Position numbers and translations under genes: made by a program. From assembly GCF_900143005.1 (NCBI RefSeq), contig NZ_FRCS01000002.1, positions 124,001 to 188,000 on the forward strand: a stretch of DNA of 64,000 nucleotides, read 5' to 3'. Positions 4,324 through 11,777 of the stretch are shown here, in pieces. Every line of letters starts with the position of its first letter. Position 1 is the stretch's first letter. The DNA comes from Cryptosporangium aurantiacum. GTDB taxonomy: Bacteria; Actinomycetota; Actinomycetes; Mycobacteriales; Cryptosporangiaceae. The notes under the pieces were generated by a model. That model was not told where the DNA came from. It made no database searches and worked only from the letters and a program-made list of their open reading frames with translations.

Positions 4324-4920
4324 CTACTGAGCCCCCTGGGCCCGGCGCTGCCGCGGCACGAACGTCGTGACGTGCCGGGCCCGGACCCGGCCGGCGACGC
4401 CGAGCAGATAGGGGGCGCGGGCCCGGTGCGCGCGGGCCTGCGGCGAGGACGGGCCGTGCCGGCCGAGCATCTCGGCCATCCGCTGCTCGACGGTGAACGA
4501 CCGTCCGTGCGGTCCCACCGTCTGGTCGGCGTAGGTCAGCGCGTCCGACACCGGGGAGATCTCCACCGGGTACCGGGCCATCTCCGCCGCCAGGCCGCGG
4601 GTCTCCGCGACGAACCGGGCGCCGGAGTGGTGGGCGACGAGGCTGGTCAGCCGGAGCGGCCAGCCCATCCGGTCGAGGTAGCGCGCACCGTCGAGCGGGT
4701 GGAACCCGGTGTCGTGCAGCTCCCCGGCGTATCCGACGTCGTGTAACCAGGCGGCGGCGACGAGCAGCTCCCGGTCCTCGGGCGGCACGGTGGAGGCCAG
4801 CTGAAGTGCGCTTTCGGCGACGCCTGCGGTGTGGAACCAGCGCTCCGCGGGGGGCGGGAGCAGCGTCCGCGCGAGCTCTTCGGCGTGTTCGAGCCCGAAG
4901 TCGCAGGCCGGTAACCTCAT
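4324..4920 (-). CDS. HD domain protein (predicted phosphohydrolase)
   Basis: A 198-aa protein with an HD-type metal site: a first His in RWFHTAGVAESA, the HD doublet in AAAWLHDVGYAGEL, and a further His pair in SLVAHHSGARFVAE. HD proteins bind a divalent metal and hydrolyse phosphate esters, often of nucleotides. The C-terminal 50 residues are basic and Ala/Arg-rich. A monocistronic gene, converging on the GS-like gene with only 4 nt between stops. The substrate is unknown. Confidence 0.8.
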   Translation of the reverse strand: MRLPACDFGLEHAEELARTLLPPPAERWFHTAGVAESALQLASTVPPEDRELLVAAAWLHDVGYAGELHDTGFHPLDGARYLDRMGWPLRLTSLVAHHSGARFVAETRGLAAEMARYPVEISPVSDALTYADQTVGPHGRSFTVEQRMAEMLGRHGPSSPQARAHRARAPYLLGVAGRVRARHVTTFVPRQRRAQGAQ

Positions 4921-5073
4921 GAACCAATTGTCACTCGGTGTTGCTAGTGATGCCCAGGTGCGCAGATGTTGCTCACCTCTCGTTCACCTTCTGTTCGCTC
5001 AACGTGCCCACTCAGAGTGAACAGGACTAACGACTCTGTGTGATAACAGCCCGGCCCGGACACACTCCACCGT

Positions 5074-5490
5074 ATGGATTCCCTCCGATCCGCACCGCAC
5101 CGGACGCTCGCCGCACTCGACCGCGACGAGTGCCTGGAGTTGCTGGCGAGCGTGCCGGTCGGTCAGGTGGTCTTCAGCTTCCGGGCGCTGCCGGAGATCC
5201 TGCCGGTGAACTTCCGGGTGGACGGCGAGAGCGTCGTGATGCGGGTGGCGAGCGGATCGGCGCTGGCCCGGGTCGCCGACGGCACCGTGCTCGCGTTCCA
5301 CGCCGACCGGGTCGACGAGTCCGAGCGCAGCGGGTGGAGCGTCACGGTCGTGGGCCGGGTCTCCGAGGTCACCGACGAGGCCGAGCAGGACCGGATCCGG
5401 GCGCTGCCGCTGGAGTCGTGGATGAGCGACGCCCGCGACCACTTCCTGCGCATCGACGCCGAGCGGGTCACCGGGCGGCGTCTGGAGTGA
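5074..5490 (+). CDS. Pyridoxamine 5'-phosphate oxidase-like flavin protein
   Basis: The 138-aa sequence matches the small split-barrel PPOX family: SVPVGQVVFSFRALPEILPV near residues 25-45, then a barrel strand SVTVVGRVSEVTD near 90-102. Such proteins bind FMN or F420 and act as reductases or oxidases on diverse substrates. It is too short and divergent for a true PdxH. Single gene; its stop is 7 nt from the convergent M56 peptidase stop. The upstream region 4921-5073 holds no other gene. Confidence 0.75.
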   Translation: MDSLRSAPHRTLAALDRDECLELLASVPVGQVVFSFRALPEILPVNFRVDGESVVMRVASGSALARVADGTVLAFHADRVDESERSGWSVTVVGRVSEVTDEAEQDRIRALPLESWMSDARDHFLRIDAERVTGRRLE

Positions 5491-5497
5491 GGGCCGG

Positions 5498-6478
5498 TCA
5501 GCGCTCCGGGGCGTCGTCGTGGGCGACGCCGCCGTTGACGGTCTGCGAGATTCGTTCGCACGCCTTCTGGTAGAGGTCCTCGACCGCGTGCGCGCCCCAG
5601 CCCGAATGGATCGGCAGCGCGAGCGCGAGCACGGCCACCACGACCAGGAGCGGACGTCCGGCGGGCAGCGGTGGTGACATCAGTGCGGTGGCGCGCGCCG
5701 TGGCGTCCCCCGCTGTTGCACGGAGCACGGGTTCGGGCGCGCGCCGGGCCACCGGACGACGTCCGGACCGGACCGCGGAGCGGGCCAACGCGGCCTTCGC
5801 GATCGCGCGGGCCGCAACCGTCCGGTCGCCGACCACCTGGGCGGCGTCCTCGTCGGCCCAGCGTTCCACCTGCTCGGCGATCGACGCGGTGAGCGGACGC
5901 AGCAACGGGTTCAACCAGCTCGCCACCCGGACGAGCAACACGTGTACGTAGTGCCGCCGCTCCAGGTGGGACCGCTCGTGCGCGAGCACGACCTCCTGCT
6001 CCACCGGTGCCAGCACCGCGAGCAGCCCGGTGTGCATCACGACCAGCCCACGGCGGCCCGGCACGGCGTAGGCCTCCGGGTCCGGGTCGTCGACGATCAG
6101 GACGCCGTCGACCGGGCGGGCCCGCCGCCAGCTCGCCTTGGCGGCCAGCAGGTCGTTCACCGCCGACCAGCCGACCGGGATCACCGCCGCCAGCGCGGCC
6201 AGCAGCGGGAGCGCGAAGAGCAGGACGGTGGCCACCCGCCCCGGCGTGTGGAGCCCGAACTCGGCCGGGAGCGGCGCGTCCCACAGCGCCGGCCGGACCA
6301 GGGCCACCGCGGCGGCTGCGGCCCCGATCGCGGTCGCGGCCGCCACCCCGAGCGCGGCGAGCGTCAGGCACCAGGTGGCCGACGCCGGGTGGACGCGCCG
6401 TGCGAGGCGAGGCCCGGCCAGGCCGACCACCGCCCCGACTCCCCAGGGCAGGACGGCCGCCAGCAGCCAGCAGTTCAC
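5498..6478 (-). CDS. M56 family membrane metallopeptidase (BlaR1-like)
   Basis: The 326-aa protein has membrane segments at about residues 4-22, 38-62 and 84-106, and one near 273-290. Between them sits a zinc protease motif HERSH (167-171, HExxH) followed by LERRH. This is the peptidase part of BlaR1/MecR1 without the extracellular penicillin-binding domain. In the family, the protease inactivates its partner BlaI repressor. It overlaps the upstream blaI-like gene by 4 nt, so the two are translationally coupled. The signal sensed is unknown; no beta-lactamase gene is present here. Confidence 0.88.
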   Translation of the reverse strand: MNCWLLAAVLPWGVGAVVGLAGPRLARRVHPASATWCLTLAALGVAAATAIGAAAAAVALVRPALWDAPLPAEFGLHTPGRVATVLLFALPLLAALAAVIPVGWSAVNDLLAAKASWRRARPVDGVLIVDDPDPEAYAVPGRRGLVVMHTGLLAVLAPVEQEVVLAHERSHLERRHYVHVLLVRVASWLNPLLRPLTASIAEQVERWADEDAAQVVGDRTVAARAIAKAALARSAVRSGRRPVARRAPEPVLRATAGDATARATALMSPPLPAGRPLLVVVAVLALALPIHSGWGAHAVEDLYQKACERISQTVNGGVAHDDAPER

Positions 6479-6894
6479 CGTTCGCCACCTCCGTCGGGCC
6501 CCGTGTTGTCGGGCTCGGTCGCGGCCAGCAGGTCCGCGAGAAGGGCTTCGTCCTGCGGGCTCAGGTCGGCGACAAAACGCGCGAGCACGCCCCGCCGGTC
6601 GCCACCGGAGTCGAGGATCTTCCGCATCCGGCGAGCCGCGGTGCCCACCTGGATCGCCTCGGGGGTCTCCACCGGCCGGTACGCGAACGACCGGCCGTGC
6701 CGCTCCCGCGCTAACACGCCCTTGGCGTGCAGCCGGACCAGCGTGGTCTGGACCGTGGTGTAGGCCAGGTCCACGGAGAGCGCGTCCCGGACCTCCGGGA
6801 CGGTGAGCGGCGCCGACGCGTTGGCCAGCACGTCGAGCACGGCCCGCTCCAGCGATCCGCTCGACCGACGGCCGTGGCCGCGCTGCTCCTCCAC
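6475..6894 (-). CDS. BlaI/MecI/CopY family repressor
   Basis: A 139-aa winged-helix protein. Residues 15-80 carry the family DNA-binding domain, including the segment TTVQTTLVRLHAKGVL; the rest is a dimerisation helix region. BlaI-type repressors bind TACA/TGTA dyads and are removed when the M56 protease cuts them. The gene sits second in the DUF2231-blaI-M56 operon, 31 nt after the first gene. A matching operator lies upstream at 7446-7465, so autoregulation is likely. Confidence 0.9.
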   Translation of the reverse strand: MEEQRGHGRRSSGSLERAVLDVLANASAPLTVPEVRDALSVDLAYTTVQTTLVRLHAKGVLARERHGRSFAYRPVETPEAIQVGTAARRMRKILDSGGDRRGVLARFVADLSPQDEALLADLLAATEPDNTGPDGGGER

Positions 6895-6925
6895 CGTGTT
6901 ACCTCCCGCTGCCCGCTGTGCGCCC

Positions 6926-7408
6926 CTATTGTGCGCTGATCACACCGTCCCAGGCGGCCTTCGCGCCGGAGTCGCCGACCCGGTAGACGGCGACCACCGA
7001 CCCGACCGCGACGACCAGCGAAAGCACGGCGAGCCCGATCGTCAGCGCGGTCTTGCTGGTGCCGGACCGAGCGGCGGGCAGGAACCGGTGCACGGCCCAG
7101 ACCGCGGCCGAGACCGCGAACAGGCCCATCGTCCACGGCAGCAGCTGGTCGGCGAGGTGCGCGTGCCTCGCGACCAGCGGACCGCCGCCGTTCAACTGTC
7201 CGGCGAGCCACTGCCCGGCCTCAGCCGTGATCGGGACGCTGATCAGCGAGATCAGCGCGACGATCGGGAGCACGACGCCGATGCGGTGGCGCGCGGCGGG
7301 CCAGATCGCGCTCGCGAGCAGCAGCAGTGCGGTGATCGGGATCAGCACGACGACGACGTGGACGAGCAGAACGTGGGCCGGCAGCCCGTTGATCTCGGTC
7401 GGTCCCAT
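6926..7408 (-). CDS. DUF2231-like integral membrane protein
   Basis: A 160-aa protein with four predicted membrane segments, around residues 10-32, 40-62, 86-108 and 122-146. The N-terminal pattern GLPAHVLLVHVVVVLIPITA is typical of DUF2231 proteins, which have conserved His residues near the membrane. Function is unknown in the family; some members sit with respiratory or stress genes. The ATG is preceded by AAAGGAG. It is the first gene of the BlaI-controlled operon and so is probably one of the outputs of that switch. Confidence 0.75.
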   Translation of the reverse strand: MGPTEINGLPAHVLLVHVVVVLIPITALLLLASAIWPAARHRIGVVLPIVALISLISVPITAEAGQWLAGQLNGGGPLVARHAHLADQLLPWTMGLFAVSAAVWAVHRFLPAARSGTSKTALTIGLAVLSLVVAVGSVVAVYRVGDSGAKAAWDGVISAQ

Positions 7409-7445
7409 GGCGCATCTCCTTTAGCGTTCAACTATCAACCATTAT

Positions 7446-7465
7446 TACTACAAACATGTGTAGTA
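7446..7465 (-). promoter_or_regulatory. BlaI-type operator
   Basis: TACTACA-N6-TGTAGTA is a perfect 7-bp inverted repeat. It matches the TACTACA/TGTAGTA half-sites bound by BlaI/MecI-family repressors. It lies 38-57 nt upstream of the first gene of the operon that encodes such a repressor, and also within the space shared with the divergent kinase gene at 7525. Confidence 0.75.
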
Positions 7466-7521
7466 GCTAGGTGGTTACGTGGCGTGGGCGCGCCGTTGAC
7501 CGGGACGCACTAATGTCCTGA

Positions 7522-9249
<1,728 letters not shown>

Positions 9250-9350
9250 ACAGTGACCTCTGGCCCTGTTTATTGGCGTACTCCTGCGCAAATCTGGGGT
9301 AGAGGGCCGGTCCGGACGGGGTCGGCCGTGCGCAGAGAGGGAGCCAGCCG

Positions 9351-11777
9351 GTGAGTCTCGGCACCGATACGCCCACCGACCCGCAGCTCAGTTCCGCCGA
9401 CCTCGCAGAGCGCGTACGACAGCTGGACGACGCCGACCTCGCGCGCGTCGACGCCTGGTGGCGGGCGAACAACTACCTGACCGTCGGGCAGATCTACCTT
9501 CAGGCCAACCCGCTCCTCCGGGAGCCGCTGCGCGCCGACCACATCAAGCCGCGCCTGCTCGGCCACTGGGGCACCAGCCCGGGCCTGTCGTTCCTCTACG
9601 CGCACCTGTCCCGCCTGATCCGGATCACCGGTCAGGAGGCGATCTACCTCGCCGGTCCGGGGCACGGCGGCCCGGCGCTGGTGGCGGCCGGCTGGCTGGA
9701 GGGGACCTACAGCGAGATCTACCCGCGCGTCGGCCAGGACGAGACCGGCCTGCACCGGCTGTTCCGTCAGTTCTCGGCGCCGGGTGGGATCCCCAGCCAC
9801 GTCTCGGTCACGACTCCTGGATCGATCCACGAGGGCGGCGAGCTGGGTTACGTCCTGGTGCACGCGTTCGGGGCCGTGATGGACAACCCCGACCTGCTCG
9901 CGCTCGCGGTGGTCGGCGACGGCGAGGCCGAGACCGGGCCGCTGGAGGGCGCCTGGAAGGGCATCTCGTTCCTCAACCCCGCGCGGGACGGCGCGGTGCT
10001 GCCGGTGCTGCACCTCAACGGCGCGAAGATCTCCGGCCCGACGGTGCTGGCCCGCAAGGACCCGGCCGAGGTGCGCGACCTCTTCTCCGGCCACGGTTAT
10101 GACGTGATCGAGGTCGAGGGCTCCGACCTGCCCGGCATGCACTACGGCTTCGCCGAGGCGCTGGCGACCGCGTGGGCGTCGATCCGGCGGATCCAGGAGT
10201 CGGCCCGCAACGGCAGCTGGGACGGCTCGCGTCCGCGGTGGCCGATGATCGTCTTGCGGACGCCGAAGGGCTGGACGGGTCCGGAGGTGGTGGACGGCAC
10301 CCAGGTGGCAGGCACCTACCGGGCGCACCAGGTGCCGCTGAGCGGCGTCAAGGACAACCCGGACCACCTGGCCCAGCTCGAACGCTGGATGCGCTCCTAC
10401 CGGCCGGACGAGCTGTTCGACGCCGACGGTGTGCCGAACGCGGACGTCCAGGCCGCGAACCCGCGCGGTGACCTGCGGATGTCGGCGAGCCCGCACGCGA
10501 ACGGCGGCCGGCTCACCCGCGATCTCGACCTGCCCGACTTCCGCCAATACGCGATCGACGTCACGTCGCCCGCAGGCAGCCGCGCCGAGTCGACCCGGAA
10601 GCTCGGCGAGCTGATGCGGGACATCTACTCGCGGAACCCCGACCGGTTCCGGCTGTTCTCGCCGGACGAGACGAACAGCAACCGCCTGGGTGCGGTGTTC
10701 GAGGTGTCCGACCGGGCCTGGGGCGAAGGCGTGCTGCCGAGCGACGTGAGCCTGAGCCGCGACGGCCGGGTGATGGAGGTGCTGTCCGAGCACAACTGCC
10801 ACGGCTGGCTCGAGGGCTACACGCTCACCGGCCGGCACGGGTTGTTCGCGACCTACGAGGCGTTCGCGATGGTCAGCGCCTCGCAGACGATCCAGCACAG
10901 CAAGTGGCTGGAGGAGGCCAACCACCTGTCGTGGCGGGCGGAGGTGCCGAGCCTGAACGTCCTGCTGACGTCGACGGCCTGGCGGAACGACCACAACGGG
11001 TTCTCCCACCAGGGGCCCGGGCTGATCCAGACCGTGCTCACACAGCGCGGCGACGTCTCCCGGATCTACCTGCCGCCGGACGCGAACTGCCTGCTGTCGG
11101 TCGCCGACCACTGCTTCCGCTCGCGGTCGTACGTCAACCTGATCGTCATCGACAAGCAGCCGCAGCTGCAGTACCTGACGATCGACGAGGCGATCGAGCA
11201 CTGCACGCGGGGGGCGAGCATCTGGCAGTGGGCAGGCAACGACGACGGCACCAGCGACCCGGACATCGTGCTGGCGTGCGCCGGTGACGTGGTCACGATG
11301 GAGACCGTCGCCGCGGCGCAGATCCTCACCGAGCGGCTGCCGCACTTCCGCACCCGCGTGGTGAACGTGGTCGACCTGATGACGCTGCCCCGCCACAAGG
11401 ACCACCCGCACGGCATGGAAGCGACGCTGTTCCGCGAGCTGTTCACCGACCACGTCGACGTCGTCTTCACGTTCCACGGGTTCCCGGGGGCGATCCACCA
11501 GGTCGTCCACGGCCGCCCGGACGCCGACCGGTTCCACGTCCGCGGGTTCATCGAGGAGGGGACCACGACGACGCCGTTCGACATGACCGTGAAGAACAAG
11601 GCGTCGCGCTACCACCTGGTGATCGACGCGCTGAACAACGCGCGTCGGACGCCGCCGGGCGCGTCCGAGCTCAGGGCGTGGTGCGAGGCGCAGCTGGACA
11701 AGCACACCGAGTACGTGGTGGAGCACCTGGAGGACATGCCGGAGGTGCGGGACTGGGTGCTGCCCGCTAGGGCATGA
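9351..11777 (+). CDS. xfp: Phosphoketolase (xylulose-5-P/fructose-6-P)
   Basis: The 808-aa product has full family length. It carries the signature segment GHWGTSPGLSFLYAHL near residue 66 and the thiamine-diphosphate motif GDGEAETGPLEGAWKG near 185. Many further family blocks follow, including RNDHNGFSHQGPG. The enzyme phosphorolyses xylulose-5-P (or fructose-6-P) to acetyl phosphate plus glyceraldehyde-3-P (or erythrose-4-P). The GTG start follows an AGAGAGGGAG site. No acetate kinase or phosphotransacetylase gene is adjacent. Its 3' end overlaps the convergent LuxR-type gene by 11 nt. Confidence 0.95.
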   Translation: MSLGTDTPTDPQLSSADLAERVRQLDDADLARVDAWWRANNYLTVGQIYLQANPLLREPLRADHIKPRLLGHWGTSPGLSFLYAHLSRLIRITGQEAIYLAGPGHGGPALVAAGWLEGTYSEIYPRVGQDETGLHRLFRQFSAPGGIPSHVSVTTPGSIHEGGELGYVLVHAFGAVMDNPDLLALAVVGDGEAETGPLEGAWKGISFLNPARDGAVLPVLHLNGAKISGPTVLARKDPAEVRDLFSGHGYDVIEVEGSDLPGMHYGFAEALATAWASIRRIQESARNGSWDGSRPRWPMIVLRTPKGWTGPEVVDGTQVAGTYRAHQVPLSGVKDNPDHLAQLERWMRSYRPDELFDADGVPNADVQAANPRGDLRMSASPHANGGRLTRDLDLPDFRQYAIDVTSPAGSRAESTRKLGELMRDIYSRNPDRFRLFSPDETNSNRLGAVFEVSDRAWGEGVLPSDVSLSRDGRVMEVLSEHNCHGWLEGYTLTGRHGLFATYEAFAMVSASQTIQHSKWLEEANHLSWRAEVPSLNVLLTSTAWRNDHNGFSHQGPGLIQTVLTQRGDVSRIYLPPDANCLLSVADHCFRSRSYVNLIVIDKQPQLQYLTIDEAIEHCTRGASIWQWAGNDDGTSDPDIVLACAGDVVTMETVAAAQILTERLPHFRTRVVNVVDLMTLPRHKDHPHGMEATLFRELFTDHVDVVFTFHGFPGAIHQVVHGRPDADRFHVRGFIEEGTTTTPFDMTVKNKASRYHLVIDALNNARRTPPGASELRAWCEAQLDKHTEYVVEHLEDMPEVRDWVLPARA

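Follow-up and report, generated by a model that had tools for sequence, protein, structure and literature searches.

A sensor-less BlaI/M56 switch in Cryptosporangium with a predicted regulon of a DUF2231 operon and an exported propeller protein gene

Pairs of a BlaI repressor and an M56 protease are named after penicillin switches, and they are common in actinobacteria (BlaI matches in 244 of the 394 genomes of our class sample). What does such a pair regulate when it shares an operon with a membrane protein of the DUF2231 family? We addressed this question at one locus of Cryptosporangium aurantiacum, contained in a 64,000-nucleotide stretch (contig NZ_FRCS01000002.1, positions 124,001 to 188,000) that is referred to here as the window. 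Our analysis favours, with a probability of about 0.72, a BlaI/M56 switch that is self-contained and governs two sites, its own DUF2231 operon and an unlinked gene for an exported propeller protein. Sequence and model comparison establish the operon and its conserved operator, a second operator site, a protease whose motif is intact and whose sensor is missing, and a recurring link between DUF2231 and BlaI. The elements of the switch are as follows.

6926..7408, minus strand: DUF2231 membrane protein (PF09990), 160 amino acids, predicted helical bundle
6475..6894, minus strand: BlaI/MecI-family repressor (PF03965), 139 amino acids
5498..6478, minus strand: M56-type membrane zinc protease, BlaR1-like, with no penicillin sensor, 326 amino acids
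7446..7465, no strand: BlaI-type operator TACTACA-N6-TGTAGTA, 0 mismatches, half-sites TACTAC/GTAGTA 8 bases apart
7416..7445, minus strand: block kept between operator and start codon in a four-genome alignment, ATAAT and then TAGTTGAACGCTAAAGGAG

The genes run in the order DUF2231, BlaI, M56 over 5498–7408, with a gap of 31 bases between the first two and an overlap of 4 bases between the BlaI and M56 genes. A preliminary description of this DNA had claimed a DUF2231/BlaI/M56 operon behind a palindromic operator, and both the Pfam matches and the operator scan bear this out. The operator, TACTACAAACATGTGTAGTA, matches TACTACA-N6-TGTAGTA without a mismatch, while 0.03 matches per window are expected by chance at up to three mismatches. 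The genome-wide search that the same description had suggested returned one exact copy in the 9.58 Mb genome, that at 7446–7465, plus one site with one mismatch and one with two, or three sites at up to two mismatches.

Our family sample comprised five genomes, four of them from the same genus: the window's own (G000), G012, G026 and G036. Each of the four carries a single exact operator, always in front of DUF2231-BlaI-M56, and in the promoter alignment the half-sites are identical and the six spacer bases differ. Since the half-sites remained unchanged while the spacer changed, the operator is, judged from this alignment, under selection. Directly past it, the four promoters keep ATAAT, followed by TAGTTGAACGCT(A/G)AAGGAG up to the start codon, the G026 version ending in GAAGGAG; ATAAT may be the -10 element and the end of the block the ribosome-binding site. 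A sigma-70 scan of 5000–9400, which tells little in high-GC actinobacteria, gave no promoter-like site, and one terminator-like site against 0.7 expected. The fifth family genome, from another genus, has no operator at up to one mismatch, and its DUF2231 relative has no BlaI within the 3.5 kb fetched.

The preliminary description regarded DUF2231 as the only visible structural output. The evidence does not support this view: a second predicted target, unlinked to the operon, has a conserved operator copy in each of the four genus genomes. Copies of the operator with 1, 1, 1 and 2 mismatches precede the same gene in G000, G012, G026 and G036, at 14, 15, 10 and 14 bases from its ATG, and the half-sites are 8 bases apart at both targets within the genus. 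By eye, the upstream neighbour of this gene is response-regulator-like in G000 and oxidoreductase-like in G012 and G026. The exact core CTACA-N6-TGTAG occurs 3, 3, 1 and 2 times in G000, G012, G036 and G026, and seven of these nine copies are the two targets. We rejected two further exact cores as targets: that at C6:50339–50354 of G000 (L005) has no counterpart at the same stringency in the other three genus genomes, and that at C1:6051689 of G012 extends into the end of a coding frame. The former sits between a histidine kinase gene and a divergent ABC-transporter ATPase gene. The other two-mismatch sites in the genus (8 of 8) fall within coding frames predicted by a simple frame-calling script. 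A two-mismatch site in G045, 125 bases before a frame that by eye is NrdR-like, was set aside as confined to a single genome.

The product of the second gene has a signal-peptide-like N-terminus, as judged by eye. Its Pfam matches are weak (none at 0.01 in G000; in two orthologues, SGL below and DUF6923 around the cut-off). Comparison with PDB sequences identified the propeller domain of Deinococcus DrSOD (9m58, E 9e-29), followed at a distance by Drp35 of S. aureus (E 0.004). In DrSOD, calcium is reported to be held by Glu200, Asn290, Asn339 and Asp381, and a weak lactonase activity on 2-coumaranone is described (PMC12362111). By our own matching of the numbering (offset 21), these ligands map to E64, N151, N205 and D254, which are identical in all six aligned propeller proteins (four of this genus, two of another genus). 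The genus protein thus shares all four ligands with the DrSOD-type calcium propeller lactonase, and lactonase activity is a candidate function only.

The protease combines BlaR1-like transmembrane stretches with an HExxH zinc protease, as seen from its motif and its model. Pfam assigns it to PF01435 (M48) with 42 bits and to PF05569 (M56) with 24.2 bits, under the cut-off of 31 for the latter, and HERSH at 167–171 as well as E205/E210 are invariant in seven sequences. The AlphaFold2 model is of middling confidence (pLDDT 75). Foldseek returned nothing significant for it, with BlaR1 entries at ranks 1, 2, 3 and 5 (E 0.9 to 2.8), and VIA-align placed five BlaR1 entries on top (best Z 9.7, rmsd 4.8, 222 residues aligned), the best alignment covering residues 1–289 of S. 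aureus BlaR1, its membrane and protease part. Four of the five top BlaR1 chains extend to 531–556 residues, against 326 here. The last predicted transmembrane stretch is 277–295, only about 30 residues follow it, and Pfam gives the protease alone, with no transpeptidase-type match that would indicate an extracellular penicillin sensor, as the preliminary description had also concluded. Because the sensor domain is missing, direct sensing of beta-lactams by the BlaR1 mechanism is unlikely, though not impossible.

The repressor matches PF03965 (Penicillinase_R) with 72 bits over residues 13–124 of 139. Among solved chains it finds only 2g9w at E 0.001 (50 bits), which we take to be M. tuberculosis Rv1846c. 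The genome holds three PF03965 matches, the third of only 24.1 bits. The other strong BlaI, followed by an M56-like gene (L001, C1:741708–745040 of G000), is nearer to 2g9w (86 versus 50 bits); the M. tuberculosis protein is likewise an actinobacterial BlaI-family repressor, and the window BlaI is not its closest counterpart in the genome. The promoter of L001 has a different palindrome, TTCTACGTTCCGTAGAC (TTCTAC-N5-GTAGAC), and TTCTAC-N5-GTAGAA stands in front of several BlaI genes related to L001. The copper repressors CopY and CopR belong to the same superfamily as BlaI. TIGR02698, the CopY/TcrY equivalog model, matches the window BlaI only partially, with 25.7 bits against a curated cut-off of 121.95. 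Unlike CopY/CopR systems, the operon contains no copper exporter, and its operator is not the reported CopY consensus TACANNTGTA (PMC7253601). Targets of M. tuberculosis BlaI (Rv1846c) beyond beta-lactamase are reported to include ftsQ and Rv1303/ATP synthase (PMC12565901).

The operator had been called near-ideal, which is true of its sequence and not of its spacing. Instead of the classical BlaI core, TACA-N2-TGTA (TAC-N4-GTA), the operator has half-sites 8 bases apart in each of the four genus genomes; the OP1 oligonucleotide of B. licheniformis is reported to include TTACATATGTAA, with the classical spacing of 4 (PMC3305447). Spacing varies within the family. Among 74 distinct BlaI upstream regions, half-site pairs at up to one mismatch have a spacing of 4 in 12 regions and of 7 in 22, whereas every other spacing from 0 to 14 occurs in 0–3 regions and simple shuffles give at most 0.05; this count is confined to regions upstream of BlaI, takes in overlapping repeats, and excludes the genus operator since it precedes DUF2231. 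The present case points to a single repressor family whose half-site is used at spacings that vary with the lineage. TACTAC-N7-ATAGTA-like pairs lie at two places before the genes of a second BlaI lineage (L095, L097–L100, L102, L103) from Frankia-like and related genomes, and these pairs suggest that spacing separates BlaI paralogues.

Does the link between DUF2231 and BlaI extend beyond the genus? In the class sample, where only the best-matching loci were fetched, DUF2231 has matches in 171 genomes, and it lies beside BlaI-M56 in all four genus genomes and in at least 11 other genomes of the class. Ten of these 11 have the divergent arrangement and belong to one genus, which we take to be Frankia; the other, G104, is co-directional and has TGCTAC-N8-GTAGTA, with one mismatch, before DUF2231. 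A scan of named genomes used the best 80 of 381 DUF2231 relatives, or 79 distinct loci. BlaI-M56 divergently adjoins DUF2231 in five of them, all Frankia (L154, L159, L180, L190, L197), and BlaI stands elsewhere in the locus in three more (L145, L183, L184). When the 200 bases before DUF2231 were searched for TACTAC-N(3-11)-GTAGTA at up to one mismatch, pairs appeared in 5/5 loci with a divergent adjoining BlaI and in 0/74 others. The Frankia divergons thus share with the genus the three genes and the TACTAC half-site before DUF2231, and differ in the divergent gene order, in a spacing that is mostly N4, and in the lack of a propeller-gene relative (0 of 13 Frankia-like genomes). In G143 (L062/L239), which is Frankia-like, an exact TACTAC/GTAGTA pair precedes DUF2231, the 15 kb fetched contain no match to BlaI, and these repeats possibly act in trans. 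By eye, L067, L072, L074 and L079 carry TGAGAACTTCCTGTG (TGAGAGATTCCTGTG in L067) about 60–90 bases before the DUF2231 start.

The DUF2231 protein itself scores 27.8 bits with PF09990, against a gathering cut-off of 26.4, and its AlphaFold2 model is a confident helical bundle (pLDDT 89.1). P10, H12, H17, W67, H82, R143 and W153, among others, are invariant in 70 sequences. The fold comparisons returned generic helical bundles: the best Foldseek E-value is 0.24, and the best VIA-align match is a designed bundle with a Z of 14.0, in a range that may mean a common arrangement only. Against solved chains, the only sequence match at E 1 is an unrelated Dicer (E 0.92). The invariant histidines prompted us to consider a heme- or cytochrome b561-like protein; b561 appears only at rank 18 with E 1.1, which we do not count as evidence.

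From these features, the following mechanism can be proposed. BlaI would keep its own operon off by binding TACTACA-N6-TGTAGTA across the operon's promoter, and would silence the propeller gene by occupying the weaker copy that lies shortly ahead of that gene's start codon. Upon a membrane signal, the sensor-less M56 protease would inactivate BlaI, directly or indirectly, so that the cell produces the membrane protein DUF2231, the exported propeller protein and additional switch proteins. Our guess is that the switch responds to membrane redox or to the condition of the envelope and not to a beta-lactam, given that its products are a membrane protein and an exported one and that its surroundings are reminiscent of islands for low oxygen or dormancy.

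Several points weigh against this proposal. We infer binding, repression and the cleavage of BlaI from sequence. The N8 spacing in the genus is 4 bases wider than that of classical BlaI and CopY sites, and binding by a normal BlaI dimer is therefore not assured; the presumed bridging of 8 bases by BlaI is where the mechanism is weakest. In principle, another regulator could own the operator, and the second BlaI (L001) could also bind it, though its own palindrome differs. A control pattern read backward was found 2, 1, 1 and 2 times at one mismatch against 2, 2, 1 and 2 for the real pattern, 13–18 times against 2–6 at two mismatches, and also more often than the real pattern at three mismatches and for the exact core. 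Weak operator-like sites by themselves hence carry no meaning, and the case for the second target is that the same gene was matched four times, not the score. With no relative of the propeller gene in the 13 Frankia-like genomes, this target is not general. Finally, 71 of the 79 named DUF2231 loci have no BlaI match in the fetched flanks, so DUF2231 does not depend on a BlaI switch.

The surroundings of the operon provide the material for two other explanations.

7525..9249, plus strand: DosS-like histidine kinase, GAF-GAF-HisKA_3-HATPase by Pfam, divergent neighbour and probably not a target
5074..5490, plus strand: pyridoxamine 5'-phosphate oxidase-like protein (PF12900), neighbour
9351..11777, plus strand: phosphoketolase (PF09364/PF03894/PF09363), context
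4324-4920: HD-domain protein (Pfam), adjoining the operon in all four genus genomes

That the operator also controls the divergent kinase is improbable in our estimation. The preliminary description placed the operator near the kinase promoter, and in G000 the kinase start (7525) is indeed only 59 bases away; this closeness is not conserved, for G012 has a same-strand NarL-type response regulator there and G026 a small protein with no Pfam match, with the operator unchanged, while G036 reaches a contig edge. Because the stretch beyond the operator varies between genus members, the presence of a kinase promoter does not account for the operator's conservation. It is somewhat easier to imagine that the operon is functionally part of a surrounding DosR-like island and responds to low oxygen, nitric oxide or redox state, a possibility we still hold to be less probable than its negation. 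The kinase, the pyridoxamine oxidase and the phosphoketolase adjoin the operon, and in G012 a cytochrome bd subunit II gene (L235:8285–9283) and a gapped kinase match accompany the NarL-type regulator next to the operator. The genus members have in common a glutamine synthetase-like gene, the HD gene and M56-BlaI-DUF2231, as well as the pyridoxamine oxidase gene, which adjoins M56 in G012 and G036 too and was not found in G026; phosphoketolase and a LuxR regulator follow further along in G000, G012 and G026. At least one island-type gene is present in 14 of the 79 named DUF2231 loci and in 1 of 60 control stretches (Fisher one-sided 0.0016), with pyridoxamine oxidase in 6 of the 14, kinase in 5, phosphoketolase in 4 and universal stress protein in 8 (single-family p 0.03 to 0.10). 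This enrichment is suggestive only, because the loci are mutually related and some of them fall outside the one genus whose ten genomes supplied the controls. In Streptomyces sp. LUP30 (L126:169–8528), phosphoketolase, flavodoxin, two pyridoxamine oxidases, a DosS-like kinase and DUF2231 stand in a row with no BlaI/M56. Against an island-wide response, the genes adjoining the operator change within the genus, and the box GGGRCNNNNGYCCC, which we presume to be the DosR-type consensus, has no match in the window, its loose form giving 10 against 25.8 expected. In its favour, the predicted OsdR regulon of S. coelicolor is reported to contain universal stress proteins and a pyridoxamine oxidase (PMC5069765).

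An indirect response to beta-lactams or cell-wall damage is a doubtful alternative, in which the signal is peptidoglycan damage perceived by the sensor-less M56 protein, or a muropeptide that affects BlaI, and both targets serve envelope defence. Drp35 is induced by wall-active drugs, and the propeller protein bears it a weak likeness; the best solved relative is the DrSOD domain, not Drp35. A peptidoglycan dipeptide is reported to free BlaI from its operator in B. licheniformis (PMC3305447). The genome contains eight PF13354 beta-lactamase-like loci, and none of the three genome sites at up to two mismatches falls in them. A 12-position scan of the fetched PF13354 stretches, which more divergent sites could escape, gave no N8 match at the class A locus L199, one two-mismatch match at L200 on the gene's downstream side, about 500 bases from the domain match, and three-mismatch matches at L202 and L204. 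Together with the conservation of the operator throughout the four genus genomes and the recurrence of the DUF2231-BlaI link, this supports the original suggestion that the switch is aimed at DUF2231 and not at a beta-lactamase. We give little credence to a mainly self-regulating repressor with DUF2231 as a hitch-hiker of no common function: many BlaI-M56 pairs do have their own upstream TACTAC/GTAGTA pairs in loci that lack DUF2231, yet DUF2231 stays behind the site in both the co-directional and the divergent arrangement, and G143 keeps the site with no BlaI match nearby. Speculative, too, and in our eyes quite unlikely, is a split BlaR1, with DUF2231 as its detached sensor, a bundle whose H12, H17 and H82 would read membrane redox or lipid state and gate M56, the N8 operator as a way of binding particular to this BlaI lineage, and the propeller protein as the effector.

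We therefore return to the self-contained switch with two targets. Like BlaI-BlaR1 and MecI-MecR1 of S. aureus and B. licheniformis, it has a repressor of the same family and a BlaR1-like membrane zinc protease, both encoded in a single operon that follows a palindromic operator. It differs from them in lacking a penicillin sensor, in having no beta-lactamase among the targets found, in its N8 instead of N4 spacing, and in its output of DUF2231 and an exported propeller protein. What is new here is this output and the operator spacing, both of which depart from the known kind of switch; no earlier account of a BlaI-DUF2231 or BlaI-propeller regulon appeared in the titles and abstract openings of the literature searched, mostly papers outside subscription. 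Our findings offer a way to approach DUF2231 through its regulation; on this family, a text search of the literature gave only a database article. Since the predicted regulon is compact, with two transcription units and conserved sites, the signal of a sensor-less BlaR1-like protease could be searched for with two reporters, and both target proteins and their trigger are directly testable.

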